DNA of 64,000 nt from Tetracentron sinense (taxonomy: Eukaryota > Streptophyta > Magnoliopsida > Trochodendrales > Trochodendraceae): NCBI GenBank assembly GCA_015143295.1, contig CM026570.1:28216445-28280444 (forward strand), given 5' to 3'. The notes beneath the pieces were generated by a model. It was not told the DNA's origin and did not search any database. It was given only the letters and a program-made list of their open reading frames with translations. The position numbers and the translations under genes were made by a program. Each line of letters opens with the position of its first letter. Positions within the stretch are counted from its first letter, which is position 1. Below are positions 16,311 to 51,396 of the stretch, one piece after another.

Positions 16311-16323
16311 ATCTCCTCCTTTG
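16311..16323 (-). other. polypurine tract of the Sirevirus
   Basis: On the minus strand AAAGGAGGAGAT directly precedes the 3' LTR start TGTAAATCCC, the position required for plus-strand priming. Confidence 0.9.
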
Positions 16324-16984
16324 GCAATTCCGGGACAAAACAAGACTAACTCATATACTAGGTACAAATTTTCCCAAATGATTCAAAAATAAAAAATTGA
16401 CCTTTACATGACTCAAAAATAAATACATGACATTTGACATTTTAACTTGTCATGATTCACCAAACTTAGAACCTGTTTGCCTGCACATGCTAAATCAAAA
16501 ACCTGTGAAGCATGGGAAATAAAATATGGGAAGAAATAAAACATGTATAACATCCACATCTCCACAATACTATATCCATAACAGGTTAATCGTGTATAAC
16601 ATCCACATCCATCCACAATACTATATCTATAACAGGTTAATCATGTTTCCATAACATCATTCACAAAATCATCATCCACAAATTCATATCCATGTGTTAT
16701 GCACATATCATGCACTCTCCCCCTTTTTGGCTCGAAATGCCAAAGGCGGACAATTAACAATAAAATGAACGCATAAACACAAATGAGATGAGATATAAGA
16801 GAATGAGTATAAACCATCCAAATGCATACATCGATGACTAAGTCAATAACATCCAAAAGGTTTGTACTAAGTACAACCAAGACAAAATACATCGAAATGT
16901 CAAACTAAAATTAGGACTAAGATAAACTCCAAAATATACACAAGAACCAGAAGGAGTTTCTATCCTAGTACATCAATCTAACTA

Positions 16985-18273: not shown

Positions 18274-18464
18274 GGACGAACAGACGATGCCCTAGATGAG
18301 AAATTCAACCTATACGCAAGAAAACGTACAAGGCTTACCTTTTTGATGCTTGGGAAACCCTTAGAGTTGAATGGAATGACCGTAGAAAGGATTTGGAGGA
18401 GAGGTAACCGAGAGATCGCTCTGGAGTTCGGAGAAGAAGTGAACAAAAAAAATAGAAATGAGGG

Positions 18465-18525
18465 TTTTATAACTCTGTTCACAAAAGACCAATCGATCGG
18501 TCTTTAACACCGAGCGATCGGTGGT
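18465..18525 (-). promoter_or_regulatory. palindrome pair plus TATA box upstream of the env-like ORF
   Basis: On the minus strand, one ACCGATCGCTCGGT and one near-perfect ACCGATCGATTGGT (18525-18488) are followed about 17 bp later by TATAAAA (18471-18465), some 190 bp before the first env-like start codon. The LTR has the same order: palindromes, then TATATAAAC. A donor-like AAAAG|GTAAGC lies at about 18340 and an acceptor-like TGTCAG near 18230. Promoter function is inferred. Confidence 0.5.
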
Positions 18526-19695
18526 CTGAAAAAATTTTCAAAAATTTTAAATTAAAACCATTTCTCCCCCTCAACCAATGGTATAGTAAAAACTCATTTT
18601 CACCTCAAAATAACCAATTCACTAAAAAATTTGCAATAATTGATTTCATTAAAATCATAAAGAATAATCACTTAAGAATTTATATATAAAGTATAGTCAT
18701 AAATAAGGATTATGTAAACAATAATTGATTTTCAAAGGTGATTAATTTTGGTATTTGCATCAAATTCACAATCAGAGTCAAGAAACAATTAGAAGTAATG
18801 TTAGTGTGAAATCAAAATTCATTACCTGACTCTTTGAATTGGTTTCCTTCCTTAAGCTAGATTTTGACATTATAGCCCAAATGGGACTCTAAAATTTTCA
18901 AAAACTAGTTTTAAAACCAATAAACATCCATACTTATATGATGAGCAATTTTTACCCCAAATTTGACTAACAAATTTATTTCATTTCTTTTTCAGTCAAA
19001 TTGTACTCATTGTGAAAATTCTTTTTGGAGTACACATATAAAGTTTTTAGCACATTGGTGACTTTCACACAAGTGAGAAGGTAGCTCTTTCTAATGACAG
19101 TGGGGGCAATCACACTAGCAATCCATATAGATACCTACTGTTTGTCTAGGTAGCCATTTCTCACTGTTTGCATTCACTAGTAGCTATCACACAAACTCAC
19201 AGGTAGTCCTCTCCATGTCAATAATTTTTATAACTAGGGGGCTCACCTTATGGAATTTTTTATTACATTGGTTATACTAGATTTGATTAATCTAGGGAAC
19301 CATATGGTATAATATCAGAACCTTTAAAATAGGAACTAATACCTTCTAAAGAATCAGTCAGAGTGCATGTGTAACATATAACATCTTTGTTTACTCAACT
19401 CTAACTGAGATTAGTTAGCATGACCAAATTCAATCACAAGATCGAACCAATAGTTGATCTATCCTAATTTATCCAATCCTATGAAATATTTATCCTTGTA
19501 TTATATGTTCAAATATGATTTCAAGGAAATAACTTTAAGCAAAATGATTGGAAAGAAGGTCATACAAACACATTATTTTTTGCAATATTTTTCAATTTTT
19601 TGAATGTTTTTGGATTTTTATTAATTAAATAAAAAATTAGCTCTATGACACAAATAGAACATGAAGAACACATAGGCTATGAAACAAGTAGATCT
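18526..19695 (-). other. Sirevirus non-coding spacer between pol and env-like region
   Basis: AT-rich, no long frame on either strand. Sireviruses usually have such a long untranslated stretch after pol. Confidence 0.6.
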
Positions 19696-22600
19696 TTACT
19701 CAACTCTGCACAAACCTATGGATTTCCTAAGGAGTTCAAACCTAAGGGAATCTAAGGGTTTTGTAAGAATATCCGCATATTGATTCTCTGTTTGGACATA
19801 CTCTATAGACACAATCTTTTGCTCAACAAGATCACAGATGAAGTGATGTCTAATGTCTATGTGCTTTGTGCGAGAATGTTGAACGGGATTTTTGGAAATA
19901 TTGATAGGACTTGAATTATCACAATACACAGTCATAGTGCTTTGTTCAATCCCGTAATCTTTCAACATCTGCTTCATCCACAGAAGTTGAGTGCAACAAC
20001 TGCCAGCTGCTATGTACTCAGCTTCTGCAGTGGACAATGAAATTGAATTCTGCTTTTTGCTAAGCTAAGCAACTAAGCAGTTTCCAATATAGAAACATCC
20101 TCCAGAGGTGCTCTTCCTATCATCAGCATTTTCGACCCAATCGGCATCGGAATATCCAACTATCGTGGCATTTGTATAAAAAGAATACAAGATGCCAAAT
20201 GATAAAGTTCCACTCACATATCGAATGATACGCTTAACTGCAAGCAAGTGAGACTCTTTTGGGCTCGCTTGATAGCGGGCACATGCACCAACACTAAAGG
20301 CTATGTCAGGTCTAGTAGCAGTTAGGTAGAGTAAACTACCAATCATGCTTCTATAAGAAGTTTGATCAACATCTTTGCCTGTAGCATCTTTACTAAGTTT
20401 TGTAGTAGAACTCATAGGAGTCCTTACATGCTTAGCAGAGCTCATGCCAAATTTCTTCACTAGATTTTTAGCATATTTGATCTGAGATACTGAGATCACA
20501 GAATCCAATTGCTTGATCTGAAGACCAAGGAAGAAACTTAGCTCACCAACCATGCTCATTTCAAATTCATTTTTCATTTGTTCGGCAAATGAAAGAGCAT
20601 GTAAGTCTAATGTGGAACCAAACACTATGTCATCAACATATATCTGGGCGATGACAATATCACCTTTCACATTCTTTATAAAAAGGGTTATGTCTACTCC
20701 CCCTCTCGAAAATCCATTTTCCAAGAGATAAGTAGTCAGCCTCTCATACCAAGCTCTTGGAGCTTGCTTTAAACCATAGAGGGCCCTTTTTAGCCGATAG
20801 ACTTGATCAAGGTGATGTGGATCTTCAAACCCTTTTGGTTGTTCCACATAGACTTCCTCATGTAGAATGTCATTCAGAAAGGCACTCTTAACATCCATTT
20901 GAAAAAGTTTGAATTTCATATGGCAAGCCACAGCTAGAAGAATTCTTATTGATTCTAGCCTGGCTACAGAAGCAAAGGTTTCATCGAAGTCAATACCTTC
21001 AATTTGGGTGTATCCTTGTGCAACTAACCTAGCCTTATTTCTTATGATAGTACCTTTTTCATCAGATTTGTTCTTGAAAATCCATTTGGTACCTATCACA
21101 TTTGTATTGTTAGGCCTAGGTACTAAATACCAAACATCATTCCTAGTGAACTGAAGTAACTCTTCTTGCATTGCATTTATCCAATTATCATCTGAAAGAG
21201 CTTCAGCTACATTCTTGGATTCAAAAGATGAAGTATAGCAAATATAGCTAACTTCATTTTCAATTTGTTTCCTCGTTCTCACTCCACTTTCAAGATCACC
21301 AATTATGTCAGTGGGGGTGTGAGGACTCATGACCCTAGAATGTGTAGGTTTTGATGGAGATGATTGCTTATTTATAGGTGGAGTTGAAACAGTTTCAACA
21401 TTTTCATTTTCAGCACTTTCATCATCCTCAAGTTGCACATTTTCAACACCGGAGTCATCCACAACTACATTTATGGACTCCATAATCGTAGAGGTTCTCA
21501 AGTTGTACACTCGATAAGCTCTACTGTTGGTGGAATATCCAAGAAATATCCCTTCATCACTCCGGGATTCAAATTTGCCCAGTTGCTCTCTATCCTTAAG
21601 GATATAGCATTTACTTCCGAATTCTCGAAAGTACTAAACACTGGGTTTCTTGTTATTCCACAACTTATATGGAGTTTTCCTTGTTCCAGGTCTTACAAAA
21701 ACTCTATTAACTATATAGCAAGCAGTGTTAACTTCCTCAGCCCAGAAATGAGAAGCTAGATTGTTGCTATGAAGCATAACTCTAGCCATCTCTTGGAGAA
21801 CCCTGTTCTTCCTCTCTACTACACCATTCTGCTGAGGTGTAATAGGTGCAGAAAATTCATGTTTGAAACCCGACTCATCACAAAAGTTGTTGTACTTAGA
21901 GTTTTCAAACTCCTTTCCATGATCACTTCGAATTCGAGTGATTGGGCATCTTTTCTCATTTTGAATTTTCAAGCAAATACTTTTGAAATTGTCAAAAGCA
22001 TCGGATTTCTCTCTTATAAATGCCACCCATGACATTCTTGAGAAATCATCAACCATAACTAGGATGTATCGCTTTCCACCTAGGCTTTCAGTTCTTGTAG
22101 GACCCATTAGATCCATATGAATTAATTCCAGTGGATATGAAGTAGCAATACTTGAAGTCTTCTTATGTGGGGTTCTAATTTGTTTACCAATTTGGCATGG
22201 CCCACACACAGTAGTAGAAGGCTTTCCTAGTTTGGGAACACCTCTTACAAGCTCTTGTTTAGAGATTTTACATAGGTCTTTGAAGTTCATGTGACCTAGT
22301 CTTCGGTGCCACAAATCAACCTCCTCAATTTTAGTCTTATAACAGACATTTGAGGGATTAGGATTGGGAATTAAGCCGTAGCAATTGTCAGTGGTTCTCA
22401 ACCCTTCTAGAACACACTTACCTTTACCATTAATGACTAAGCATTTATTTTGGGTAAAGGGCACAGCATGGTTATCATCACATAGTTGACTTATGCTAAT
22501 TAAATTAGCTTTCAGTCCTTCAACAAACAAGGCATCTTTCAATTTTGGTATGCCTGGAGAATCGATGATACCCTTCCCCTTTACTAAAGACTTGCTTCCA

Positions 22601-22806
22601 TCACCAAAAGTAACAGTCCCATCTGGACAGTCCTCAAATTGAGTAAATAAGGACTTGTTACCTGTCATATGCCGAGAACACCCACTGTCGAAGTACCACA
22701 TTTCTATGTTTTGGGCTTTCAAGGCAGTGTGAATGACGAAGCACTTAAGGTCATCCTTTCTTACATACACAGTCTTTAAACCTTGTTTAGATCTTTGATC
22801 ATTAAA
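19696..22806 (-). pseudogene. Sirevirus pol: protease, integrase, RT, RNase H
   Basis: Copia-order polyprotein in one frame. Visible in order: aspartic protease WYFDSGCSRHMTG, the pre-integrase zinc site (LWHRRLGH...C-x2-C), integrase with HMDLMGP, RSDHGKEF and NGVVERKNR carrying the D-D-E residues, reverse transcriptase with YVDD at 20629-20640, and RNase H with STAEAEYIA. In-frame stop codons split it near 22807 (between gag and pol), near 21631 (integrase C-terminal part) and near 20062 (start of RNase H; TAG where related elements have Trp). Catalytic residues that can be seen are retained, so decay is recent. It acts in the virus-like particle and nucleus in functional relatives. Confidence 0.9.
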
Positions 22807-25013
22807 CTATGTATTAGAAAACTTTTTCCTTTTTGTCCTCCTTGACCTTTTCCTATTTTGTTCAGTTCTAGCTTTTTGATTAGTCATTTTCTTTCCTATT
22901 GAATAATCATTTGGAATAAATTGACCAGTTCTTGTCATAGAGATTTGAGCAATTCTATTAACATCTTCGCTCAATATTCTAGACTTTTCAGCCAGAACCT
23001 GAATCTGCCTTTGAAGAGTCCCTTGACTTTGATTTTGGTTCCATGAACCATTTTGAGGAGCTCTCCTAAGAGCATTAAAATTTGGTCGAATGTGACCTCT
23101 TACACCACAAAAGTGACATGTGGGTATGAATCTTTGGAGATGAGGATTTCTTCTAAAAGGAATTTGATTCCTCATAGCATTCACTCTAGGAGCTGTATTT
23201 CTAGGCTTTACAAAATTTGTATAAGCCTTAGTACTTGATGTAGAAGGTAGATTCACTTTAGGATCAGAATGTATTGGCTCAAACACTGCACTAGCCATTG
23301 TACCAACAGCTAAAGGACTAGCTGGTGTGTCAGCATGTCCTATCCCAGATCTACTCGAATTTGACCCATATTTTCTAACTAATTCATCTAGGCAGCTAGT
23401 GTTACCAAACATTTTTACTTCTTTTTCAAGAGTATAGACCTTCTGAATCAAGTCAGTCTTGTCTTTAAGGGTAATTTGATGTTCTTTTTCAAGAAATTTC
23501 ACCTTATCAACAAGAGAGTCTTTAAAAGTTTCCAGCTCCATTTGCAGAGTTCTTAACTCTTCAATTTCTTTCATGGAAGTGTCTCTTTCAACTTCTAATT
23601 TTCTGATCACATTAGTCAGTGAGACATTTTCTTCCAAAAGACATTGAACTTTCATAACAAATGCTTCTTTTTCATTTTCCAACTGACTAACTAGAGCACT
23701 CTTCTCTTCTGCTACTAGTTTACAAGTATCTCTTTCATTTTGAATGATTTGAGTTTTTTGCTCAAGGAGATTTTTGTTTTAGTCAGCTTCAAACTTTCAG
23801 CATACAACTTATCATAAGTTGTTTTCAAATCTTCATCACTTTCAGAGTCAGTTTGACTCTTCTGTATGTCATCACTAGACTCAGTATGAACACTCTCATC
23901 ACTTCTATCATTTTCATCAACCGCAGAGGTAGTCTCAAGAATCCCAGAAAGGGAAACAGTGAAAGCCGTATGATTTCCAGTATCTTCACTTGAAGAGGAA
24001 TTGTCCGATTCTTCATTCTCGGAATCACTGTCATCCCAACAGGCATTCATTACCTTGCCCTTACTCTTCTTCTTGTTAGGGCAGTTAGGTGAAATATGAC
24101 CGAAGCCATGGCATTCATAACATTGAATACCTTGGGATTTCTTGTCGCCACTCTTGGAATTTTTCTTGTTTTCCCAGGGCTTAGACTTTGACTTCTCAAA
24201 AGATTTTCCTCCCTGTTTGGGATTGAACCTCTTTTTCGTTCTAAAAAATTTTTGAAATTTTTTAACGAAGAGAGCCATTTCTTCCTCATTCATATCTCCA
24301 TCACTGTCATCCTCATCCAAAGATTCCTTGATGGATTTCAAGGCTAAAGATTTGTTCTTCTTGGATGGACGGAGATTGAGTTCATAGGTTTGAAGTGAAC
24401 CAACCAATTCCTCAATCTTCAGAGAGTCAACATTTTTACTCTCTTCGATTGCAGTGACTTTGGGTTGAAATCTCTCCGGTAGAGATCTAAGGACTTTTCT
24501 AACTACTTTGGACTCAGATATTTTCTCACCTAAATTGAAACTAGCGTTGACAATGTCACTAAGTTTTGCATAGAATTCATCAAAAGTGTCATTGTCATCC
24601 ATGTTTAAATGTTCAAATTTGGTGGTTAACATTTGGAGTTTTGAGATTTTAACAGTGGTAGTACCCTCATGGGTAATTTCAAGAATGTTCCAAGCCTCCT
24701 TTGCTGTTTCACATGAAGAAATTCGTCTGAATTCCTCAGCAGTGACTACAGTAAAGATAGCATTGAGACCTTTAGTGTTCCATCCACTCGACTCAAGCTC
24801 TTCTCTGGTCCATTCATTATAATATTTGACGACAGTCAAATCACCTACAGTGTTTATGGGCGTAGTCCACCCATTCTGTATAGACATCCAAATTCTCTCG
24901 TCAATTGATTTGAGAAAGGCTCTCATTCTAGCTTTCCAGTATGCATAATTATTCCCATCAAAAAGTGGGGGACGAGAGACGGATCCACCTTCTCTTAGAG
25001 TACTCATGATCAC
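22807..25013 (-). pseudogene. Sirevirus gag, long form with two zinc-knuckle sites, frameshifted
   Basis: The N-terminal 432 residues (25013-23715) hold the copia Gag domain (PPLFDGNNYAYWKARM) and a zinc knuckle CYECHGFGHISPNC, then an acidic Ser/Glu/Asp-rich stretch. The remaining ~290 residues (23682-22807) read in another frame: a coiled-coil-like Lys/Glu-rich segment, then a second zinc-knuckle site CHFCGVRGHIRPNF in which the last Cys is Phe. A 1-nt shift in the A-run near 23755-23765 separates the halves. A long Gag with a second knuckle is a Sirevirus trait. The second half is in frame with pol, from which it is separated by one stop. Confidence 0.88.
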
Positions 25014-25060
25014 GGATAATACAGGATCACACTTAAGGGATTAGCCTTATCAGTGAACAA

Positions 25061-25072
25061 GCTCTGATACCA
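25061..25072 (-). other. primer-binding site, initiator tRNA-Met
   Basis: TGGTATCAGAGC on the minus strand, 2 bp inside the 5' LTR, complementary to the 3' end of plant initiator tRNA-Met. Confidence 0.95.
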
Positions 25073-25074
25073 AT

Positions 25075-26294
25075 TGAAATTTATCTAGATCAATGATCTC
25101 TAAGACCTAGAGGGGGGGTGAATAGGTCTATCTAATAATTTCTAACCAATTTTAATTTTTCAATTAATATGTTTAGAAATCAATGAATAATTCACTCAGA
25201 CAATCCACACAAATCAAACACAGAAGATTTTTACGTGGAAAACCCTAACGGGAAAAAACCACGGGACCTCGTCCAGCAACAAACTTCACTATGAAAAGAT
25301 TTTAAGTACAAGACAAGACCTTACCAAAACAGAAACGACGTTCCTAGGTATAGACTCTTACTCTTGATTTCCACGAACCAGCAGGTTCGATCTCCGCCGT
25401 AGCAGCTTCGGTTCCACACCGAACAAATCTTCTCAAGCTACTTCAAAACCACGATCACACACGATCGATCTCCTTCCACGAAGGCTCCGGATCAAACACC
25501 GGACACACACACAAGGTGTAGGGTTGTGAATCAATTTTGGAAGTTTCAAACCCTAGAGGGATCTCATATAGATCTGAGATCACACAATGCAAGATCAAAG
25601 GTTTAGATCTATACTTGCATTCTCTAGGATCAAAGAAAGAGGAGGGATCAACAAAGATCTAATAAGAACAATAGGAAAAACCCTAGAGGAGTTTCTCAGA
25701 CCTCTACTCTTTCAAAATTAAACAAAGATACGAATTAGGTCTCCAAAAAGTTGTTTATATAGGGTTTAAAAAAGAATCCAGAAAAATAAAAATTCTTTTT
25801 ACGGGGACCGATGGATCGGTGCACATTATCGATCGCTCGGTCCAAAACGGATCGATCGGTGCTCATAACCGATCGAGCGGTTGAAAATCATCTCTCTGGA
25901 AAAATACCCCATACAAATTTATTGTCCAGTCGATAGCCACCGATCGCTCGGTAGGCCACCGATCGATCGGTCTCAACACCGAGCGATCGGTTGAGACAGA
26001 ATTTTTTCAAACCATGATTCATTTCATGTTTATTTGATTCAACTAAGATCAAACAACTTTATTAGGTTTAAAACTATCCTCCTAGGTATGTTTAGAGTTA
26101 TCTAAGTCAAATCCAACCTAGGTAGGGGTCTCTAAGTCCATTACCTTTCTAGATCCAGAGTAGGAGCTTTTTCTTCACTTTCTTCAATCTTCTTGATGCT
26201 TTACCTCTTCTCTTCTGACAAGTTGAACACGACTCGACTCACATGACCTATCTAATGATCACGGAATTTGCCAACACCTACTTAGGGATTTACA
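25075..26294 (-). repeat. 5' LTR of the Sirevirus
   Basis: 1220 bp, followed by the TSD ATTAG at 26295-26299. The TATA box (TATATAAA, minus strand) lies at 25754-25761, about 46 bp downstream of the last palindrome in the cluster at 25807-25991. Confidence 0.95.
25807..25991 (-). promoter_or_regulatory. palindrome cluster in Sirevirus 5' LTR U3
   Basis: Same seven-unit arrangement and same 185-bp length as in the 3' LTR. Two unit positions differ by point change (for example ACCGATGGATCGGT at the plus-strand start). It sits directly upstream of the TATA box. Confidence 0.9.
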
Positions 26295-26595: not shown

Positions 26596-26807
26596 TGTAG
26601 AGTCCTGGACCTTTTCACATTTAATGCATGACACTTTCGTTGCCATTTTGCCTTTAAAGAGGTATAATTAATAAATAAGGAAGAAATTGGAAATTCCAAA
26701 CTGTCAGAAATGTTCGTTTTCGAAGTACGAACCCAACACAAGTTGAATCGTCAAAATCGGACGAACGAGTCAAAAGTTATGGCCAAAACAGTTTGGACCT
26801 GCAGACC

Positions 26808-26952
26808 ACCGATCGCTCGGTCCAAAACCGATCGCTCGGAGGCTATCGACTGGTCAAGATTTTTGAATGGGGAAATTTTCCAGAGAGTGAAATTTTAACC
26901 GATCACTCGGTTATGAAACCGATCGATCGGTCATTAACACCGATCGCTCGGT
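26808..26952 (+). promoter_or_regulatory. palindrome cluster in 5' LTR U3 of copy 1
   Basis: Five units of ACCGATCGATCGGT or one-mismatch partners, two before and three after the non-palindromic core at about 26841-26895. The core matches that of the Sirevirus LTRs. 39 bp shorter than the cluster in the 3' LTR. Confidence 0.9.
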
Positions 26953-27884
26953 ACTCGCGTTTTTGCAGAAATTTCAGTAAGGGTATTATGGTCTTTTGGT
27001 CGGTTCACTCTTACCTTAAGAGTTTAACCCGAGCCATTAGGACTTCATTTTGACACTTAGAGAGATTGGGAGATAAGAAGAGAGGAGAGGGCGATTCCTA
27101 AACCTAGGGTTTCCATTTTGGAGAGAAATCAAGGGGTTTGTGAACCCACACTCAACTCAAGCCCATTTTTCTTCAAGATCAAGGCACAAGCTCGTGAGGA
27201 GCATCTCCTCAAGCTAGGGCAGCAACTCACGGTCATTTTTGGAAGGGGATTTCTTCCTCACTTGATCAAGGTCGGTACTTCTTGCTACCCTCCTAGTTAT
27301 AGTTCCTCTTTTCCCTTTATTTCTCTTTATTTTCCTTTATTTACACATGTGCTATGAGATGGATGGTTGTGAATGGTGAATGGAGATGGAATGGGCGATT
27401 GGATGCCAATGGTTTTGTTGTGATGATTAAAATGGGGAGGGCATTGTTCCAATAATGAACATACATGCATGATTTGAGTAAAATCCATCTAGAAAAGCAT
27501 GTTGTAGGGTAAATCAATAATGAACACACCATGTTTGATGAAATGCCAAATGAATGAAATGAATAATAAATAAAGAAATTGCATGCTTAAACATTCATGG
27601 AAATTGCTAGGGTTATGGTAGTGTGTTTTTGCGCTTTCCCTAAATTGTTTAATTTATTACTTGTATATATGGTGATGTGCAATGTATTGTGAATTCCCCA
27701 AAATGTCATAATTAATTTCCATTGCAAGTGTGTACACGATTACACGAGCACGGCATGAAATGACGTGATTTACCGATGTTTTCAAGGACGAGATGTAGAG
27801 GTGGGGCATATCCTACGATATGTTTCACTCCACTTTTGTCAAGGACAAGATGATCATGCATTGCATAGGGAAGGGTCTCCCATC

Positions 27885-28305
27885 CCATCGCATTACACGC
27901 ATGGTATGGCATCGCATTACACGCATGGCATAGCATCGCATGACACGCATAGCATAGCATTTCATGAAACTCATGGCATGACATGACACGCATGGATGCT
28001 AGTTGCGACGGACTATGAACGGCAACTAGGCATACCCATCTGCATATAGGGTATTGGTTGCGACGGACTATGAAAGGCAACTAGGCATATCATTCCGCAT
28101 GGATGCTAGTTGCGACGGGCTATGAACGACAACTAGTCATACACATTCTGCATGGATGCTAGTTGCGACGGGCTATGAACGGCAACTAGGCATGCCATTC
28201 TGCATATAATGTACTAGTTGCGACGGACTATGAACGGCAACTAGGCATATCATTCATCATATAGGATACTAGTTGCGATGGGCTATGAACGGCAACTAAG
28301 CATGT
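27885..28305 (+). repeat. tandem arrays in the LTR leader: CATCGCATTACACG repeats and six hairpin units
   Basis: 27885-27990 holds short repeats of GCATCGCATTACACGCATGG. 27991-28305 holds six units of 52-55 bp, each with an 8-bp inverted repeat CTAGTTGC...GCAACTAG around a loop of about 15 nt (GACGGGCTATGAACG). It lies about 1 kb downstream of the U3 palindromes, so it should be in the transcribed leader. Confidence 0.9.
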
Positions 28306-29038
28306 GAATATGTTTAAATTCCGAATAAGCAAGCATGATACAAGCATGACAAGCATGACACGGTAAATAAGTTCCCAATTACGCGAAGGGTATTTTAAGT
28401 CAAGTCAAGTGCATGGTGTTTTTCAAGGATTTTATCGGCTTTTCATGAACTGCAAGCATGATTATGAATTTCCTTATTTCTTTGTATGATATTAACTGTT
28501 CCTGATTCATATATATCTATATTGTTTCCTGGGTATGCATTGCTATCTCTTGCTATAACTGTTGGTTAGTAGTTAGTACCCGCTGAGTATTCCATGCTCA
28601 GCCGTACTTCTTATGTCGGCAGGTTCTGAGGGAGCTGCTGCTCCATTTGATGTTTGTGCTCCTGGTCCATGGGTGGAGGAGGAGTACGTCGAGGAGCCTT
28701 TGGAGGAACCTCCCGTAGAGGGTTATCAGTAGGTGGTGTTAGATTCTGAGTGGATTAGCTGTGGGTGAGCATGAGTGATTATATCCATGTATTTTGGCGG
28801 GCTTGTCCGCACTTTCTTTGTTTTGATTTCTTTGTGTTAAAACTTGGACCATGTGTATATACTTAGAGGTTTGTTAGACTTCCGCTGTGTCTTATAGTTA
28901 TGCTTCCGTTGTTATCCTCTATTGTATATGCCCTGTGGGTGTTTTGCAGGTGGTTTGTCAAGCAAGTCATGTAAGTCATGATTTAGTCGTCCACGATTAA
29001 CTCTAACTCCTAGGGTGGGTTTTGGGTCACAACAGAAG

Positions 29039-29050
29039 TGGTATCAGAGC
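29039..29050 (+). other. primer-binding site, initiator tRNA-Met
   Basis: TGGTATCAGAGC, 4 bp after the 5' LTR. Confidence 0.95.
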
Positions 29051-29395
29051 TTAGGCTTTAGGTCTCTAGGGTCACTTAAAATCTTATACCACGGCTTGAC
29101 AAGAGCATATGTTAAGAAACAAGTTAGGAAGGAAGTAAGTCGGGAGCGAGTCTAGTTCCAAGTGTAAGACTAAACTTTAGTCTTAGTCTAAAATGGTTGC
29201 TTTAACCAAGTACGGGTCCTAGGTACGCTAGAACACTAAAGTATAAGTATAATGTGATGAATACTCTGATGACTTGATGTGATGTATATTAGTATTATAC
29301 AACTAATACAAATTGAATTATTGTGAAATGGCATTGAAATAAACTGCGGTTTAAAGTTAGACTCATGTGGTGTTATTATTCTCAGGACTTTAGTC

Positions 29396-30587
29396 ATGAG
29401 ACGGAACACACGGGGTCGTGGGCCACATACCAGAGCTTCGTCTTCTTCACAGGATGAGGATGAGCAGCCGAACCTCTCTCAGGTCTTAGGCTCTATTGCT
29501 GAGACACTCGCCATCCTGGCGGCTCGACAAACTATACCAGCATCAGCGGCACCTACTCCACTGCCTGGAACTCCAGTACATCGTACAGCTGGAGTTGAGG
29601 CATTCCGGAGATTGAGGCCTCCCTCCTTCCATGTGAGTGTGGACCCTCTTGCTGTGGAGGCTTGGATCCTCCAGGTTGAGAAGATATTTGCGGTGCTCTC
29701 TCCTACAGAGGAAGAGAAAGTAGCATGGGCAGTTTTCATGCTAGAAGGTGAAGCCCACCATTGGTGGTTGTCCGCATTGAGGACACGGGACTTGACCATG
29801 CAAGGTCAACCGTGGACTTGGGAGGAGTTTAAGGATACGTTCTATAAGAAGTATTTCCCGGTTGGAGCTCGGGAAAAGAAAGAGAGAGAATTCATCAACC
29901 TTGAGCAAGGTTCGATGTCTGTGGCCGCTTATGAGGCCAAGTTCTCGGAGCTATCACGCTTCGCGACACATATGATTGCCACCGAGGCAAGGAAGGCGAG
30001 GAGGTTTGAGCAAGGACTCAAGGATGTCATCATGGAGAAAGTATCGGTCTTTAGGCATGCCACTTATGCTGAAGTGGTGGATAAAGTCTTGTTGGTTGAG
30101 ACCAACTCTGAGGCGGTGTCCAAGAAGAGGGAATTGACGAGAGGCCAATCCAATAGTTCAGCACCTCTAGAGAGGCGGGCTCGTACCGGCCCTTATCAGT
30201 ATACATGGCCAGCACCACCGATGAGGCCGACTTATACGCCTCCAGCACCACGGTAGTATGTACCACAGGCACCTCGACCTCAGGCACCTCCTACCCGCAC
30301 ACACGAGGCCTACCCTTCATGCGGCCGAAGGCACCCAGCAGGGGATTGCCTAAGAGCATCGGGTGGATGTTTTCACTATGGTCGCTAGGGCCACGTGATC
30401 AGGGATTGCCCTACCCGGCATTTACCAGGCCAGTCTCAGGGGATTAGGCCACCAGCACACCCAGCAGGATCATATCAGGCGTCATCTCAGACTACCCGGT
30501 CTACACCTCAGTCTCGCCAGGCGAACCAGGGGCGTGTATTTGCTTTGACAGAGGGTGATGCACTTGCATTTGATGATGTGGTGCAAG
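29396..30587 (+). pseudogene. gag of Tekay-like copy 1
   Basis: Begins MRRNTRGRGPHTR. The retrotransposon gag domain is clear (AWVFMLEGEAHHWW-type segment, FKDTFYKKYFP, EFINLEQGSM). It is followed by a Pro-rich linker and a two-part zinc-knuckle region: CGRRHPAGDC, then C-F-H-Y-G-R-stop-G-H. In the second knuckle the second Cys is Tyr (30377-30379) and a TAG follows at 30386-30388. Another TAG lies at 30254-30256 in the linker and is shared with copy 2. The frame runs to the donor-like site at 30587. Without splicing it continues to a TAA at 30713-30715, adding about 42 mostly hydrophobic residues. Confidence 0.88.
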
Positions 30588-30731
30588 GTACGTGTTTAGA
30601 GTTATTTTCCTTATTCGTGATTGTTATGTTATGTTTTATTCCTTGTGTACGTACTTGGTATGCTATATATATATATACCTATGTGTATACACTGTTGATG
30701 CTTGAATTGAAGTAACTAGTTAAAATTTCAG
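30588..30731 (+). other. putative spliceosomal intron between gag and protease
   Basis: CAAG|GTACGT at the 5' side and AAATTTCAG|GA at the 3' side enclose 144 AT-rich bp. Removal puts gag (29396-30587) in frame with pol (30732-34057), splitting a Gly codon in phase 1. Without removal a TAA (30713-30715) ends translation. The element at 49252-63499 has the same junctions around 146 bp (59666-59811). Splicing is inferred from sequence only. Confidence 0.7.
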
Positions 30732-33700
30732 GAACCCTACTAGTCAATGAGTATTTGGCTCGAGTATTGATTGATACCGGGTCTACTCATTCGTTTGTCT
30801 CGCCGAGTTTTTCAGAAGGCTTTTCTGTGGAGCCTAGTCAGTTAAAACTGGAGTTAGCCATTTCGACTCCTCTCGGCAAAACAGTATTGGCAGATAAAGT
30901 GTATAGAAATAGTGTGGTCCAAGTTGGAAGCCACGAGTTGGTGGTTGATCTCATCGTCCTTGGATTCCAAGACTTTGATGTTATATTGGGAATGGATTGG
31001 TTAGCAGCGCATCATGGGCATGTAGCTTGCTTTGAGAAGATGGTACTCTTCAAGCCAGTAGAAGGAAAACCATTTCACTTTCGGGGGTTGAAACGTAGAG
31101 ATATTGCTCGCTTTACGGCATTGTACCTAGCAAACCTCGAGGCAAAGGACTCTTCGACTATTCCGGTCGTGAGTGAATTCCTGGATGTATTTCCAGAGGA
31201 GTTGCCAGGATTACCTCCAGACAGGGAGATTGAGTTTGTGATCGAGCTTGCACCAGGCACAGCTCCCATCTTTCGGGCTCCGTATAGAATGGCCCCGGTT
31301 GAACTTAAGGAGTTGAAGACCCAGTTGGAGGAATTGCAAGGCCTTGGCTTCATTTGACCAAGTGTCTCACCGTGGGGTGCCCCAGTGTTGTTTGTTAAGA
31401 AGAAAGATGGCTCGATGCGGATGTGCGTCGATTACCGGTAATTGAACAAAGTCACTATAAAGAATAGGTATCCCTTGCCTAGGATTGATGACTTGTTCGA
31501 TCAGTTGAAGGGAGCGAGATTTTTCTCGAAGATAGATCTTCGATCGGGTTTTCACCAGTTGAAGATTAAGGTGGAAGATGTTCCCAAAACTGCTTTCAGG
31601 ACTCGATATGGGCACTACGAGTTCTTGGTGATGCCTTTTGGTCTCACGAACGCGCCGGCAGCCTTTATGGATTTGATGAACCGGGTGTTCCAGCCATATC
31701 TTGATATGTGCGTGATTGTATTTGTTGATGACATTTTGGTCTATTCCCAGACATGGGAAGATCACACACGCGATCTACGCCTTGCTTTGGAAATGCTAAG
31801 AGAGCACAAGCTATATGCCAAACTTAGCAAGTGTGAGTTTTGGTTCGAAGATGTGGTATTTCTAGGCCACGTTGTTTCCGCGGAAGGCATATCGGTAGAT
31901 CCAAAGAAGATAAAGGCTGTTATGAGTTGGGCAAGGCCCAAGAGTGTCACAGAGATACGCAGTTTTCTTGGGCTGGCAGGCTACTACAGGAGATTCGTAG
32001 AGGGTTTCTCCAACCTTGCAGCACCGCTCACTTACCTGACAAGGAAGAATGCCAAGTTTGTATGGAGTGATAAGTGCGAGATCAGTTTCACGGAACTGAA
32101 GAAGAGGCTTACTACAGCCCCTGTCCTTACTGTGCCATCTGGACCTTATGGGTATGAGGTGTATAGTGATGCCTCACACGTTGGACTTGGGTGTGTACTC
32201 ATGCAGCACAAGAAAGTCATTGCCTATGCATCAAGGAAATTGAAGGAGCATGAGAAGAATTATCCCACGCACGACTTGGAGCTTGCGGCAGTCGTGTTTG
32301 CACTTAAGATTTGGCGTCATTACCTTTATGGGGTGGAGTTCTATGTGTTCACCGATCACAAGAGTCTCAAGTATCTCTTTTCCCAAAAGGAGCTGAATCT
32401 AAGGCAACGGCGTTGGATGAAATTTTTGAAAGACTATGATTGTACCATTCAATACCACCCGGGTAAAGCAAATGTAGTGGCTGATGCTTTGAGTAGAAGA
32501 CCTCCAGGATTATTAGCATGCATGTTGGTGCAAGAATGGAAGCTACTTGAAGACTTGGCAAATCTGGACATTAGTGTGAATGACTCTGTCCGTAGTCCTA
32601 TCTTGGCAAATGTCACGGTTCGGCCATACATTATAGATTTAATCCAAGAATACCAAGCCACGGATGCTGAATTGTTGGCTTATCGGGACAAGGAAGTTGC
32701 TAAGGGTAGTGAGGACTTCTCTCTCACTAGCCAAGGTGCTATCACATTCAAGGGAAGGCTGTGTGTCCCAGCCAATGCAGATCTTCGGAGGGAGATTATG
32801 GATGAAGCCCACCGGGTAAAGTACACTGTGCATCCAGGGGGTACGAAGATGTACCGGAACCTCAAGAATCACTTTTGGTGGCGGAATATAAAGAGGGATG
32901 TTGCTGAATATGTGGCACGGTGCTTAGTGTGCCAACAGGTGAAAGCAGAACACATGCGACCCGCCGGTCTATTGCAGTCTCTTCCTATTCCCGAGTGGAA
33001 ATGGGAGAACATATCCATGGATTTCATAGTTGGCTTACCAAAGACGGCAAGAGGCTCAGATGCGATATGGGTAGTAGTGGATCGTGTGACAAAGTCCGCA
33101 CATTTCTTACCCTATCGAACTACTTTCAACTCTAGTCAGTTAGCCGCTTTGTACATCAAGGAAGTGGTGAGGTTGCACGGAGTGCCCGTCAGTATTGTGT
33201 CGGATCGGGATCCAAGATTCACGTCAAGATTTTGGAAAAGTTTTCAAGAGGCTATGGGTTCCCGACTTGATTTCAGTACCGCTTTTCATCCAAAGACGGA
33301 TGGACAAACCGAGAGAGTGAACCAAGTCATTGAAGACATGCTTCAGGCTTGTATGTTGGATTTCAGAGGCAGTTGGGAAGAGCACTTGCCTTTGGTTGAA
33401 TTCGCCTATAATAACAGCTATCAGACGAGTATCCAAATGGCACCATTTGAGGCCTTGTATGGGCGAAGTTGTAGGTCTCCTCTTTATTGGGATGAGGTAG
33501 GAGAAAGGAAAGTACTTGGTCTGGAGTTGATTGAGCAAACTGCAAACACAGTTAAGATCATCCGGGATCGATTGAAAGCCGCTCAAGATCACTAGAAAAG
33601 TTATGCGGACACGCGCCGTAGGGACTTGGAATTTCAAGTAGGGGATCAAGTTTTTGTGAAAGTATCTCCTAGCAAAGGGATCATGAGATTTGGCAAGCGA

Positions 33701-34057
33701 GGCAAGCTCAGTCCTCGGTATGTTGGGCCTTTTGAGATTATCACGCGAGTTGGTGAGGTTGCTTACAGGGTAGCTCTCCCACCACACATGGCCGCAGTTC
33801 ACAACGTTTTCCATGTGTCTATGCTTCGGAAGTATATTGCGGATCCTTCGCATGTCATAGACTTGGAACCGTTGGAGATTCGAGAGGACCTCACCTTGAT
33901 TGAAAAGCCGGTTCAGATTTTGGATCGAAGAGATCAAGTGCTTTGCAACAAGACAATCCCTTTGGTTCTTGTGCAATGGCAACACCATGCTCGGGAAGAA
34001 GCTACATGGGAGCGTGAAGCCGAAGTCAAAGTGAAGTATCCAGAATTATTTGAATGA
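30732..34057 (+). pseudogene. pol of Tekay-like copy 1: protease, RT, RNase H, integrase, chromodomain
   Basis: One frame with three stops. In order: aspartic protease with DTGS (30773-30784); RT with FVDD at 31721-31732, the usual plant gypsy form; RNase H ([22 protein letters not shown]); integrase with the zinc site (C-x2-C in RCLVCQQ), DFIVGLP, SDRDPRF and the DDE Glu in DGQTERVNQ; the GPFEI/HPVFHVS-type C-terminal region; and a chromodomain near 33880-34054 ending WEREAEVKVKYPELF. Stops: TGA 31355-31357, TAA 31439-31441, TAG 33593-33595. All can be explained by C-to-T change of CGA, CAA or CAG. Visible catalytic residues are intact. Confidence 0.92.
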
Positions 34058-34144
34058 GTTTTTGTATAAGTTTGTATATGACTTGTAATTTTCTTTTTTG
34101 TTGTAATGCAAGTAGCGTCTAAATTTCGAGGATGAAATTTTTGT

Positions 34145-34156
34145 AAGGGGGGAGGA
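34145..34156 (+). other. polypurine tract of copy 1
   Basis: AAGGGGGGAGGA directly precedes the 3' LTR. Confidence 0.9.
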
Positions 34157-34368
34157 CGTAGAGCCCCGGACCTTTTCACATTTAATGCATGACACTTTCA
34201 TTGCCATTTTGCCTTTAAAGAGGTATAATTAATAAATAAGGAAGAAATTGGAAATTCTAAACCGTCAGAAATGTTCGTTTTCGAAGTACGAACCCAACGC
34301 AAGTTGAATCGTCAAAATCGGACGAACGAGTCAAAAGTTATGGCCAAAACAGTTTGGACCTGCAGACC

Positions 34369-34552
34369 ACCGATCGCTCGGTCCATAGAGCGATCGATCG
34401 GTCCAAAACCGATCGCTCGGAGGCTATCGACTGGTCAAGATTTTTGTATGGGGAAATTTTCTAGAGAGTGAAATTTTAACCGATCGCTCGGTTATGAAAC
34501 TGATCGATCGGTAGGCAACCGATCGATCGGTCATTAACACCGATCACTCGGT
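34369..34552 (+). promoter_or_regulatory. palindrome cluster in 3' LTR U3 of copy 1
   Basis: Seven units, two more than in the 5' LTR. The extra units are a 20-bp piece near 34384-34403 and a 19-bp piece near 34500-34518. Confidence 0.9.
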
Positions 34553-35591
34553 ACTCGCGTTTTTGCAGAAATTTCAGTAAGGGTATTATGGTCTTTTGGT
34601 CGGTTCACTCTTACCTTAAGAGTTTAACCCGAGCCTTTAGGACTTCATTTCGACACTTAGAGAGATTGGGAGATAAGAAGAGAGGAGAGGGCGATTCCTA
34701 AACCTAGGGTTTCCATTTTGGAGAGAAATCAAGGGGTTTGTGAACCCACACTCAACTCAAGCCCATTTTTCTTCAAGATCAAGGCACAAGCTCGTGAGGA
34801 GCATCTCCTCAAGCCAGGGCAGCAACTCACGGTCGTTTTTGGAAGGGGATTTCTTCCTCACTTGATCAAGGTCGGTACTTCTTGCTACCCTCCTAGTTAT
34901 AGTTCCTTTTTTCCCTTTATTTCTCTTTATTTTCCTTTATTTACACATGTGCTATGAGATGGATGGTTGTGAATGGTGAATGGAGATGGAATGGGCGATT
35001 GGATGCCAATGGTTTTGTTGTGATGATTAAAATGGGGAGGGCATTGTTCCAATAATGAACATACATGCATGATTTGAGTAAAATCCATCTAGAAAAGCAT
35101 GTTGTAGGGTAAATCAATAATGAACACACCATGTTTGATGAAATGCCAAGATGAATGAAATGAATAATAAATAAAGAAATTTCATGCTTAAACATTCATG
35201 GAAATTGCTAGGGTTATGGTAGTGTGTTTTCGCGCTTTCCCTAAATTGTTTAATTTATTACTTGTATATATGGTGATGTGCAATGTATTGTGAATTCCCC
35301 AAAATGTCATATTTAATTTCCATTGCAAGTGTGTACACGATTACACAAGCACGGCATGAAACAACGTGATTTACCGATGTTTTCAAGGACGAGATGTAGA
35401 GGTGGGGCATATCCTACGATATGTTTCACTCCACTTTTGTCAAGGACAAGATGATCATGCATTGCATAGGGAAGGGTCTCCCATCCCATCGCATTACACG
35501 CATGGCATGGCATCGCATTACACGCATGGCATAGCATCGCATGACACGCATAGCATAGCATTTCATGACACTCATGGCATGACATGACACG

Positions 35592-35906
35592 CATGGATGC
35601 TAGTTGCGACGGACTATGAACGGCAACTAGGCATACCCATCTGCATATAGGGTATTGGTTGCGACGGACTATGAAAGGCAACTAGGCATATCATTCCGCA
35701 TGGATGCTAGTTGCGACGGGCTATGAACGACAACTAGTCATACACATTCTGCATGGATGCTAGTTGCGACGGGCTATGAACGGCAACTAGGCATGTCATT
35801 CCGCATATAAGGTACTAGTTGCGACGGACTATGAACGGCAACTAGGCATATCATTAATCATATAGGATACTAGTTGCGATGGGCTATGAAGGGCAACTAG
35901 GCATGT
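35592..35906 (+). repeat. hairpin-unit array in 3' LTR of copy 1
   Basis: Six CTAGTTGC...GCAACTAG units, the counterpart of 27991-28305, with a handful of point changes. Confidence 0.9.
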
Positions 35907-36640
35907 GAACATGTTTAAATTCCGAATAAGCAAGCATGATACAAGCATGACAAGCATGACACGGTAAATAAGTTCCCAATTACGCGAAGGGTATTTTAAG
36001 TCAAGTCAAGTGCATGGTGTTTTTCAAGGATTTTATCGGCTTTTCATGAACTGCAAGCATGATTATGAATTTCCTTATTTCTTTGTATGATATTAACTGT
36101 TCCTGATTCATATATATCTATATTGTTTCCTGGGTATGCATTGCTATCTCTTGCTATAACTGTTGGTTAGTGGTTAGTACCCGCTGAGTATTCCATGCTC
36201 AGCCGTACTTCTTATGTCGGCAGGTTCTGAGGGAGCTGCTGCTCCATTTGATGTTTGTGCTCCTGGTCCATGGGTGGAGGAGGAGTACGTCGAGGAGCCT
36301 TTGGAGGAACCTCCCGTAGAGGGTTATCAGTAGGTGGTGTTAGATTCTGAGTGGATTAGCTGTGGGTGAGCATGAGTGATTATATCCATGTATTTTGGCG
36401 GGCATGTCCGCACTTTCTTTGTTTTGATTTCTTTGTATTAAAACTTGGACCATGTGTATATACTTAGAGGTTTGTTAGACTTCCGCTGTGTCTTATAGTT
36501 ATGCTTCCGCTGTTATCCTCTATTGTATATGCTCTGTGGGTGTTTTGCAGGTGGTTTGTCAAGCAAGTCATGTAAGTCAAGATTTAGTCGTCCACGATTC
36601 ACTCTAACTCCTAGGGTGGGTTTTGGGTCGCGACATTAGG

Positions 36641-36880
36641 TGGTTGAATCCTAAGAGTTAGTGAATCTTAATTACAATTAAGAGGTATTAAAAGAGCCGC
36701 CTGTTGACCTTTGGGTTCTAACCAGACTCCAAGGAGTCTGATTATAACAATAGAGGATTCTAAGTCCTTATAGTAAACCATATTTAAACAAAAAAAAAAA
36801 AACACCTCTATGTCCCATGCTAAGATCAAATCACAACCAATTGCTATTGAACTCAGGAAGAGTTCAATTGCACCAATAAG
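36641..36880. mobile_element. further part of the split hAT/MITE-like host element
   Basis: GGTTGAATCCTAAGAGTTAG directly continues the host sequence interrupted at 26595. It ends with ATAAG (36876-36880), the target site of the next solo LTR. Confidence 0.55.
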
Positions 36881-38099
36881 TGTAAATCCCTAAGTAGGTG
36901 TTGGCAAATTCCGTGATCATTAGACAGGTCATGTGAGTCGAGTCGTGTTCAACTTGTCAGAAGAGAAGAGCTAAAGCATCAAGAAGATTGACGAAAGTGA
37001 AGAAAAAGCTCCTACTCTAGATCTAGAAAGGTAATTGACTTAGAGACCCCTACCTAGGTTGGATTTGACTTAGATAACTCTAAACATACCTAGGATGATA
37101 GTTTTAAACCTAATAAAGTTGTTTGATCTTAGTTGAATCAAATAAACATGAAATAAAGTATGGTTTAAAAAAAAATTCTGTCTCAACCGATCGCTCAGTG
37201 TTGAGACCGATCGATCCGTGGCCTACCGAGCGATCGGTGGCTGTCGACTGGACAAAAAATTTGTATGGGGTATTTTTCCAGAGAGATGATTTTCAACCAC
37301 TCGATCGGTTATGAGCACCGATCGATCCGTTTTGGACCGAGCGATCGGTAATGTGCACCGATCGATTGGTCCCCGTAAAAAGAATTTTTATTTTTCTGGA
37401 TTCCTTTTTTAAACCCTATATAAACAACTTTTTGGAGACCTAATTCGTATCTTTGTTTATTTTTGAAAGAGTAGAGGTCTGAGAAACTCCTCTAGGGTTT
37501 TTCCTATTGTTCTTATTAGATCTTTGTTGATCCCTCCTCTTTCTTTGATCCTAGAGAATGCAAGTATAGATCTAAACCTTTGATCTTGCATTGTGTGATC
37601 TCAGATCTATATGAGATCCCACTAGGGTTTGAAACTTCCAAAATTGATTCACAACCCTATACCTTGTGTGTGTATCCGGTGTTTGATCCGGAGCCTTCGT
37701 GGAAGGAGATCGATCGTGTGTGATCGTGGTTTTGAAGTAGCTTGAGAAGATTTGGTCGGTGTGGAACCGAAGCTGCTACGGCGGAGATCGAACCTGCTGG
37801 TTCGTGGAAATCAAGAGTAAGAGTCTATACCTAGGAACGTCGTTTCTATTTTGGTAAGGTCTTGTCTTGTACTTAAAATCTTTTCATAGTGAAGTTTGTT
37901 GCTGGACGAGGTCCCGTGGTTTTTTCCCGTTAGGGTTTTCCACGTAAAAATCTTCTGTGTTTGATTTGTGTGGATTGTCTGAGTGAATTGTTCATTGATT
38001 TTTAAACATATTAATTAAAAAAATTTGGTTAGAAATTATTAGATAGACCTATTCACCCCCCCTCTAGGTCTTAGAGATCATTGATCTGGATAAATTTCA
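36881..38099 (+). mobile_element. Sirevirus solo LTR, TSD ATAAG
   Basis: 1219 bp, TGTAAATCCC to AAATTTCA, nearly identical to the LTRs of the Sirevirus at 15091-26294 but in opposite orientation. ATAAG flanks it at 36876-36880 and 38100-38104, so it arose by LTR-LTR recombination of a full insertion. Palindrome cluster at 37186-37370 (185 bp), TATATAAA near 37419-37426. Confidence 0.95.
37186..37370 (+). promoter_or_regulatory. palindrome cluster in the Sirevirus solo LTR
   Basis: Seven units in the element-sense order. The non-palindromic core, GGCTGTCGACTGG through TTTCCAGAGAG (37239-37286), aligns with 26841-26887 of the gypsy LTR. Confidence 0.9.
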
Positions 38100-39204: not shown

Positions 39205-41616
39205 TGTAACGACCCCAAAATCCTACTAAGGCTAAAATAGGACTTTGGAATCGCCACATTCACTTAAACTGCTTAAAACCATGCATACAAGGCTACTACA
39301 CGAGTCTCCAAAAATGAGAGTAATAAAATTCCGATATATAAACCCAATCCAACCTGCACAAGTCTAAGGTCTATATATACAACTCACAATGAACCAACAA
39401 GTCTGATACACAACTAACAAGAAGTCTACTGAGCAACATCCTCTAAAAGTCAAATACAAAACTCTCTCAATGAAAAGAAATGTAAACTAAGAAGTGTAGC
39501 CGCCCAAGTCTCCGGCTCCCTCCTCAGAAGGCTCACCTTCACCTCCTTCCTCGAGGTAAGTCTCCTCAACCCACGGCTCCGCCGTGTACTCCTGCTCTAT
39601 ACCTGCCAAGATAAAATCCGGCTGAGTACAAAGGTACTCAGTGTATATAAAATCCAATCAACAATAATAATATACCTGCACTTAGTCAGAAACATATCCA
39701 ATAGCATAATAACATAATCAGAGTGCGGAAGAACGTGTGTGCATATTCATCATATCATCACCTTAACTCGTGTACTTGTGAGAATCTTAGACTTGGAAGA
39801 CAATACACTTATGAGTTGCTTATGCTTATGAGACCACGTGCTTGTGAGATGCTTACACTTATGCTTATGCACTTATTCAGATCATACCAGGATGAGACAT
39901 GCCGTTCTTGGCGGATACGGACCACGCCTTATGCACTTATTCAGATCACACTGTAATAAGACATGCCGTTCTTGGTGGATACGGACCATGCCATGCTTAT
40001 GCTTATTCAGAATGTCATACGTATGCCATGTTCATGCTTGTAGTCCATATGTGTGACTTTTGAGACTCTTATCTTAACATACACGTGCATATGTGCTTAA
40101 GTGTCGAAATTAATATTCGAGTTGGTAATTGCTTAGGTTCCGATCTCCCACCATGGAAACTCCACTATATGTCCCATACCAAATAGTTAGAGAATTCCCG
40201 GTTTGAGAGATGTTCCTCTAAGTTCTTACCTTCCCGACTATCAATTTCCATGCAAATAATTAGACATACTTAACAAACCATTCACATATACATATCTTAT
40301 CATAATTCATATCGCAATTCATAATCAATTTACCACCATTTCATAAGAGTATAATAGCATTTATCCATTCAAGCCTTTTCACAAACACCTTGTGTACGTA
40401 TAATATGAATCCATATCTCCTCTATATTTTCAAGCATTCATCAAACCATAATTCATCCATACAATCAATATATTCATCCACATCCACAAATTAATCCCAT
40501 CCTCCATACATTCTATCCACATTTCCAATCCATATATCCATTCACATTCCCATCCATAATCAGCTTATTTCATAGAAAATTAGGGAAAATGCATCAACTA
40601 TCTATTTCTACAATTCTTAGCACATCAACATTCACAAAACCTTAAAATAGAGTTGATTAGGATAGTATATCGACCTTAGGAATCCTTCCCTTGGATTCAA
40701 AACGCTCCTGAGACGATTTGGAGAAGCTTCCCAAACTTTTCTTGCAATCTCCTATCAATCTCCTCCTTCTCCAAGAAAACCCTCTCTCAAAACCCTAGGG
40801 TTTCTCCCCCTTTTTGCCAAATTAGGTTAGAACTAGGTGGAGTATTTTAATATTTCGAGTAGGACCCCCTATTTATAGCCCCAAGGTATGAGAACGAAAA
40901 GACCAAAAAGCCCATACTAAAAATAAGCAAAAACACGAAGGACCGAGCGATCGGTGGTAATGACCGAGCGATCGGTTGCCTACCGATCGATCGGTGTTTA
41001 TGACCGGGCGATCGGTCAAAAACACACTCTCTGGAAAATTTCCCCATACAAAATTTTGGACCAGTCGATAGATACCGATCGATCGGTTTTGGACCGATCG
41101 ATCGCTGGTTCTGACCGAGTGATCGGTGCTCTATTTCGACTCATTTTACTGTTTTGGCCATAACTTTTTACTCGTTCATCGGATTTTGACGATTCAACTT
41201 GGGTTGGATTCGTCTTTCGAAAATGAACATTTCTGGCATTTTAGAATTTCCAATTTCCACTTAATTAATAGACTAAAATATCCCCAAAGTTGACTGATCT
41301 GTAATTCCATTAGACAAAACTCACTATTGACTTGACTTAAACTCAAAATGAGGAAAAACACTAACCATGAACCTCGAAGAGGGTTCCAACACCTTTCTAA
41401 TGGTTCAAGAATCACACAATTCCAGTAAACGGTGCTAAAACTAGAGCTTCCTAAAGTTTAGGGTGTGCTATGACATCCATCCGTTACAAGTTGATTAAGC
41501 CTAGTTTACATCACCATAATTAGATATAAAAAAAACAATAAACATCAAACATCACAAGGACTAAAATACCCTTAACACAATGAAATAAAAACATGAAAAA
41601 GATTCGGGTCTCTACA
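39205..41616 (-). mobile_element. diverged Tekay-type solo LTR, TSD AATCC
   Basis: 2412 bp on the plus strand from TGTAACGACCCC to GGGTCTCTACA, flanked by AATCC (39200-39204, 41617-41621). In minus orientation it has the Tekay-type order: U3 block with GATTCAACTTGGG, palindrome cluster (40942-41127), TATAAATAG at about 40869-40877, leader repeats near 39895-40000, and a leader hairpin near 39620-39640. Confidence 0.9.
40942..41127 (-). promoter_or_regulatory. palindrome cluster of the diverged gypsy solo LTR
   Basis: Seven ACCGATCG-type units around the shared core (ACCAGTCGATAG on the plus strand near 41060). TATAAATAG follows about 65 bp downstream on the minus strand. Confidence 0.88.
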
Positions 41617-51383: not shown

Positions 51384-51396
51384 TCCTCCCCCCATT
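51384..51396 (-). other. polypurine tract of copy 2
   Basis: Minus strand AATGGGGGGAGGA, directly before the 3' LTR start TGTAGAACCCC. Confidence 0.9.

Follow-up and report, generated by a model that had tools for sequence, protein, structure and literature searches.

How do retrotransposons of two superfamilies come to carry the same sequence module in front of their promoters? The question is raised by a 64,000-nucleotide stretch of the Tetracentron sinense genome (contig CM026570.1; hereafter the window, in whose positions all coordinates are given), in which the long terminal repeats (LTRs) of Sirevirus-type Ty1/copia elements and of Tekay-like Ty3/gypsy elements both hold a cluster of near-palindromic boxes around a non-palindromic core. 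Ty1/copia and Ty3/gypsy are treated as separate lineages with separately evolving promoters, and a shared cassette would show regulatory parts crossing between them. Judged from its sequence, the module is homologous across the two superfamilies: its core, its sense, its edges and the order and spacing of its parts support common ancestry. We consider it probable that this promoter-proximal cassette came to be shared by Sirevirus and Tekay-like chromoviruses via inter-element recombination and was kept as an upstream activating platform. As published, Gypsy elements make up 20.5% and Copia elements 11% of the T. sinense genome (PMC7709256). The elements concerned are as follows.

15091-26294, minus strand: SireA, Sirevirus-type Ty1/copia element, duplication ATTAG
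15091-16310 (3') and 25075-26294 (5'), minus strand: SireA LTRs, 1220 bp, TG..CA ends
36881-38099, plus strand: SireB, solo LTR of the same family as SireA, duplication ATAAG
26596-36635, plus strand: TekA, Ty3/gypsy chromovirus-type element, duplication TTAGG
26596-29034 (5', 2439 bp) and 34157-36635 (3', 2479 bp), plus strand: TekA LTRs
49252-63499, minus strand: TekB, another Ty3/gypsy element, itself interrupted by other insertions, duplication CTTTG
49252-51383 (3') and 61414-63499 (5'), minus strand: TekB LTRs

The two superfamilies were told apart by Pfam domains and gene order. Along the minus strand, SireA encodes a copia gag (PF14223), rve and then RVT_2 (1.1e-70), and TekA contains PF03732 gypsy gag, RVP_2, RVT_1, RT_RNaseH and Integrase_H2C2 in gypsy order, with rve under the cut-off and a weak chromodomain match after the integrase (PF00385, E 0.0011, 19.3 bits vs. 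a cut-off of 25.1). The internal regions of TekA and TekB are 83-88% identical in their aligned pieces. The lineage name Sirevirus is a provisional assignment from element features rather than from a reverse transcriptase (RT) tree. Among these features, palindromic boxes lie in the upper LTR half of SireA and again before an env-like open reading frame (ORF), as expected of a Sirevirus, and a pattern search found two polypurine tracts and no more, the terminal one and one upstream at -417, in keeping with the multiple tracts of Sireviruses. The env-like ORF, an extra ORF between pol and the 3' LTR (ATG at 18273, 282 aa), has a Pfam match to Transposase_32 and not to an envelope. For the gypsy elements we likewise assume the lineage name Tekay provisionally, from LTR length (2.1-2.5 kb).

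By our count, two Sirevirus insertions (three LTRs) and six Tekay-type insertions (eight modules) bear the module, 11 modules in total. The copies listed in an earlier, sequence-only reading of the window were all recovered; that list had overlooked two more, at 46424-46609 and 63096-63278.

15823-16007, minus strand: module of the SireA 3' LTR, seven boxes and core
25807-25991, minus strand: module of the SireA 5' LTR, seven boxes and core
37186-37370, plus strand: module of the SireB solo LTR, seven boxes and core
37239-37295, plus strand: core of the SireB module, 57 nt, non-palindromic
26808-26952, plus strand: module T27, TekA 5' LTR, 145 bp, without boxes 2 and 6
34369-34552, plus strand: module T34, TekA 3' LTR, seven boxes and core
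40942-41127, minus strand: module T41, piece of a Tekay-like LTR, followed by TATAAAT after 64 nt
46424-46609, plus strand: module T46, Tekay-like LTR, absent from the earlier list
50947-51132, minus strand: module T51, TekB 3' LTR, box 4 degenerate
57413-57579, minus strand: module T57, in a Tekay-like LTR nested in TekB, one box fewer
63096-63278, minus strand: module T63a, TekB 5' LTR, rearranged, start of core lost
63682-63846, minus strand: module T63b, Tekay-like LTR that received the TekB insertion, one box fewer

A complete copy consists of three 14-bp boxes, the 57-nt core and four further boxes, and measures 184-186 bp; T27, T57, T63a and T63b, which have lost or altered boxes, are shorter at 145-183 bp. 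The three Sirevirus modules and the complete Tekay types T34, T41, T46 and T51 share box-start spacings of 20-21/19/71/20-21/19/21 nt, if a four-mismatch box within the T41 core is set aside and box 4 of T51 is counted with its four mismatches. The module starts at position 304-306 of the LTR in Sirevirus and at 213-252 in TekA and TekB, and its sense follows that of the element in 11 of 11 copies, as had been claimed. Across the window, 72 box-like 14-mers (at most 2 mismatches) fall into 12 clusters, namely the 11 modules and the env linker of SireA, with no boxes elsewhere in the 64 kb; five simulated sequences yielded none. A box of the ACCGATCGATCGGT type reads ACCG..CGGT; the order CGG..CCG arises only across adjacent boxes. 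The ratio of observed to expected CpG is 1.6-1.9 within the modules vs. 0.7 in the remaining LTR.

The similarity between superfamilies extends well beyond the boxes. Among the self-BLAST matches of at least 150 columns, in which T27 (145 bp) and T63a do not appear, 15 Sirevirus-gypsy module pairs show 71-76% identity over 165-196 columns, and these alignments end inside the outermost boxes or within about 5 nt of them. Over the 78 nt of core, box 4 and its linker, identity between Sirevirus and gypsy copies is 66-79% (T63a, which has no core start, left out). The sequence-only reading was thus right that the likeness exceeds the palindromes and too narrow in placing it in about 90 bp, since all 184-186 bp are shared, while its estimate by eye of about 80% core identity matches only the best computed value, 79%. 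In a shuffle test covering four of the eight gypsy cores (T41, T57, T63a and T63b were left out), the box-free 57-nt core scored 56, 56, 45 and 41 against T27, T34, T46 and T51, and for each of them 0 of 2000 dinucleotide shuffles scored as high. Against all eight Tekay modules the core scored 33-61 in element sense, and the best of 4042 non-module windows reached 27. Outside the module, similarity drops to shuffle level, in agreement with the earlier statement that the rest of the LTRs is unrelated: between SireB and the TekA 3' LTR, the one pair compared in this way (200 mononucleotide shuffles), the upstream part scored 18 vs. a shuffled mean of 18.3 and the downstream part 25 vs. 24.1, compared to 137 vs. 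15.6 for the module. The Sirevirus and gypsy internal regions share three short matches, all between SireA env-linker boxes and the T57 module within TekB. These results bear out the claim of one module in both kinds of LTR, with core and layout statistics that make it stronger than first put.

They also bear on two accounts that dispense with exchange between elements. Palindromes could have evolved in each lineage for the same host factor without shared descent, and the different palindromes with similar cores found in unrelated Sireviruses (PMC2829016, available text) indicate that palindromes arise repeatedly; however, what both lineages have in common includes a non-palindromic core of one length (57 nt), the spacings and the linkers between boxes, and the core statistics contradict convergence, to which we give almost no credence. 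Alternatively, the module could be a small transposon resembling a miniature inverted-repeat transposable element that inserted into each LTR. Its edges are sharp and its terminal box palindromes resemble short terminal inverted repeats, but sense and place are identical in all modules, and direct repeats (4-9 nt, fewer than 2 mismatches) flank none of the 11, although old duplications could have decayed. We regard this account as very improbable. The sequence-only reading had itself allowed for a core no better than shuffled sequence and for a transposon with target-site duplications of its own; the core beat shuffles and outside windows alike, and 0 of 11 modules are flanked by a duplication. 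An insertion preference for palindromes was considered separately and rejected; it is slight as described in the available text of PMC6911290, and it does not account for a shared core.

The arrangement of the module offers an indication of how it may have moved. The inter-box linkers show no direct match between superfamilies, but they match once the two Sirevirus arms are exchanged and reverse-complemented; for example, the CCAAA that precedes the core in Tekay corresponds to the TTTGG that follows it in Sirevirus, and the AGGCA that follows it in Tekay to the GGCCT that precedes it in Sirevirus. Core, box 4 and its linker keep their sense, so that a Tekay order of A-C-B corresponds to B'-C-A' in Sirevirus. 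For the four gypsy types having all seven boxes, to which the linker tests were confined, the mean linker score was 14.6 flipped vs. 4.9 direct, and 2 of 20,000 shuffles reached the flipped score in either orientation; type by type, the shuffles reaching it, again of 20,000, numbered 2 (T34), 73 (T41), 8 (T46) and 328 (T51). Alignments of whole arms, scored for three types, favored the flip on both sides (left arm, 59 vs. 46, 56 vs. 40 and 49 vs. 36; right arm, 66 vs. 60, 66 vs. 57 and 61 vs. 47), and two of the three asymmetric Sirevirus arm boxes fit it. In addition, T27 and T34, the modules of the two LTRs of TekA, differ solely in boxes 2 and 6, one linker being lost with each. Arm swap and box-precise deletions together fit recombination at palindromic boxes. 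We infer that the inversions arose by recombination between self-complementary boxes, which needs both DNA strands, as during plus-strand synthesis or repair of an integrated copy; inversion requires a strand change, and template switching on RNA alone does not yield it.

The core also provides an estimate of when sharing occurred. Over the core stretch, Sirevirus differs from TekA by 21-24% and TekA from TekB by 23-25%, so that, if rates are alike, the sharing would be about as old as the split of the TekA and TekB lineages and far younger than the superfamilies. In an unrooted core tree (T63a left out), Sirevirus and TekA grouped together in 177 out of 200 bootstrap replicates; lacking a root, the tree gives no direction of transfer. 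The boxes before the env-like ORF, together with the genus-wide Sirevirus boxes in the available text of PMC2829016, hint at a Sirevirus source, and the wider spread of Tekay copies in the window hints at the opposite. Because these hints point opposite ways, one also has to weigh separate capture by each lineage, without direct exchange, of a module that came from neither of them (but from host regulatory sequence, another transposon or a satellite). That such sequences spread is illustrated by a maize palindrome present in both Copia and Helitrons (PMC10760457, available text). Two captures would, however, have had to be alike in place before the TATA box and in sense, and the 64 kb searched contain no source copy and no other boxes; we judge this origin fairly unlikely.

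The position of the module relative to the TATA box, which the sequence-only reading placed just downstream, and a second occurrence of the boxes within SireA suggest a role in transcription.

37417-37423, plus strand: TATATAA of SireB, 46 nt past the last box
18488-18522, minus strand: two boxes before the SireA env-like ORF, with a third, degenerate one at 18407-18420
18463-18471, minus strand: TATAAAACC (TATAAAA), 16 nt past the box pair and upstream of the env-like ORF

In Sirevirus the proposed placement was accurate, with TATATAA 45-46 nt past the module in three of three copies. A TATA-like site lies 61-64 nt past it in all eight gypsy copies, good in three (TATAAAT, TATAAG and TATAAA) and degenerate in the other five. 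Within SireA, the box pair and TATAAAA ahead of the env-like ORF resemble an internal promoter that would serve this extra gene. A splice-like GTAAG was also seen by eye between box pair/TATAAAA and the env-like ORF (18273-18522, minus strand). Exact-pattern scans of viral contigs for the core and for a pair of module boxes gave no match. In both superfamilies boxes precede a TATA-like site, and SireA has a further set ahead of its env-like ORF, from which we suggest that the module is probably an activator platform. Divergence between Tekay types, compared over six of the eight gypsy modules (without T27 and T63a), is consistent with constraint on the boxes, which differ by 0.12, less than the linkers (0.27) or the downstream LTR (0.35-0.39) despite their CpG richness.

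Conservation of the core relative to divergent flanks (0.30 upstream, 0.35 downstream) was initially considered and then dropped. The upstream part of T63b is unrelated to the others, so its removal lowers the upstream value to 0.18, equal to the core, and the claim for the boxes is weakened as well. The T63b LTR (module at 63682-63846) is a case of its own: its upstream part, at 63847-64000, is unrelated to other Tekay LTRs, and likeness to them sets in about 10 nt ahead of box 1 and continues through module and downstream LTR; the window ends 154 nt past the module. An insertion could explain this change, as could a further break close to the edge of a module.

A role other than transcription might also preserve the boxes. 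The cassette could act as RNA, its boxes folding the 3' U3 of the transcript and feeding small-RNA silencing or template switching. Both modules examined fold better than shuffles (z of -3.3 and -5.2, 0 of 200 as good), and maize Sirevirus palindromes are small-RNA hotspots in the available texts of PMC10760457 and PMC5311732. Palindromes fold anyway, so this behavior is not specific; the predicted pairings are unlike between the two modules, and DNA binding is favored by the fixed spacing, the constant sense of the core and the position ahead of TATA. Retention for an RNA role therefore seems unlikely to us.

Taken together, these data are best accommodated by an exchanged, promoter-proximal cassette. 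According to this model, the seven 14-bp boxes, each a near-palindrome, and the oriented 57-nt core between them would constitute one cis-regulatory cassette, exchanged through recombination between elements in Tetracentron ancestry, and crossovers would probably have fallen in the palindromic boxes. Dimeric host factors may bind the boxes, which lie about two helical turns apart, the core, close to the TATA box, would contribute a site whose action depends on orientation, and the two lineages would draw on the same host input. Of the earlier proposal of transfer followed by promoter retention, common ancestry of the module has held up; template switching and promoter retention are, like transfer route and direction, host factor and activating function, things we infer. 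A shared cassette could explain joint activation of unrelated elements, and with two unrelated LTR backgrounds keeping the same parts, the role of the Sirevirus palindromes becomes testable. More generally, and only tentatively, clusters of palindromic boxes might make U3 promoters modular: strand switches at self-complementary boxes would allow cassettes to be lost, inverted or passed between LTR elements of any superfamily in a genome, arms being free to flip and the core bound to keep its sense, and unrelated retrotransposons would share host regulatory input by exchange rather than convergence.

Several observations weigh against exchange of a functionally retained cassette. With T63b excluded, the boxes are only modestly constant compared to the upstream LTR (0.12 vs. 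0.16-0.18), the core, at 0.17-0.19, is no more constant than that upstream part, and box 4 varies freely (0.25); homogenisation between boxes could, moreover, mimic constraint. The five degenerate gypsy TATA-like sites read TATTAA (twice), TATTAG and CCTTAAG (twice). Box 1 is the asymmetric arm box that does not fit the flip, and the arm-swap test was post hoc, run after the pattern had been noticed. The hints on direction of transfer conflict, and the evidence base is one 64-kb window of one genome, read as sequence.

Elsewhere in the window, an ORF at 7918-9387 corresponds to protein HHK36_027258 of T. sinense, an early-diverging eudicot tree (100% identity over 91% of the query); it is a lipase class 3 gene that in relatives goes under the name galactolipase DONGLE-like. 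A satellite-like tandem array with a 179-bp period occupies 191-1277 (6.1 copies) and 2789-3169 (2.1 copies), and a minisatellite of CTAGGGTTTGA-like units with a period of about 24 bp lies at 5757-6005. Tandem repeats are also found inside both TekA LTRs, at 27886-28303 and 35487-35904, with periods of 24 bp and 55/160 bp.

LTR mosaicism and template switching exchange LTR segments among members of one family or closely related elements and are not known to do so across Ty1/copia and Ty3/gypsy; the case described here, a probable exchange of an LTR segment, resembles them and differs in involving the two superfamilies. Among the matches listed in our literature search (titles and the starts of abstracts, with most subscription papers outside its scope), there was no report of an LTR module common to both. 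As far as the literature was searched, box clusters in Sireviruses are known, and one ordered cassette in both superfamilies is new. Among the closest known systems, the Sirevirus repeated-motif (RM) boxes (Bousios et al. 2010, PMC2829016) resemble the boxes here: in the available text they are numerous near-identical, CpG-rich palindromes that lie in the upper LTR half, 200-400 bp from the LTR start and ahead of the TATA box, and that recur in extra copies before the env-like gene. The nearest RM box, by our reading of that text, is Tnd-1 ACAATCGATTGT; the order CGG..CCG within one box, a feature of RM boxes, is absent both from Tnd-1 and from the ACCGATCGATCGGT type. RM boxes are described there as specific to Sireviruses within Ty1/copia, whereas here cassette and core are also found in Ty3/gypsy LTRs. 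In maize, the available text of PMC10760457 describes Ty3 elements as generally without an obvious peak of such structures, and the palindrome CACCGGACNNNGTCCGGTG it reports in Copia and Helitrons parallels the present case as one motif in two unlike transposon groups. The maize palindrome is a single motif with a Helitron partner (PMC10760457), while the module in T. sinense is an ordered cassette with a core.

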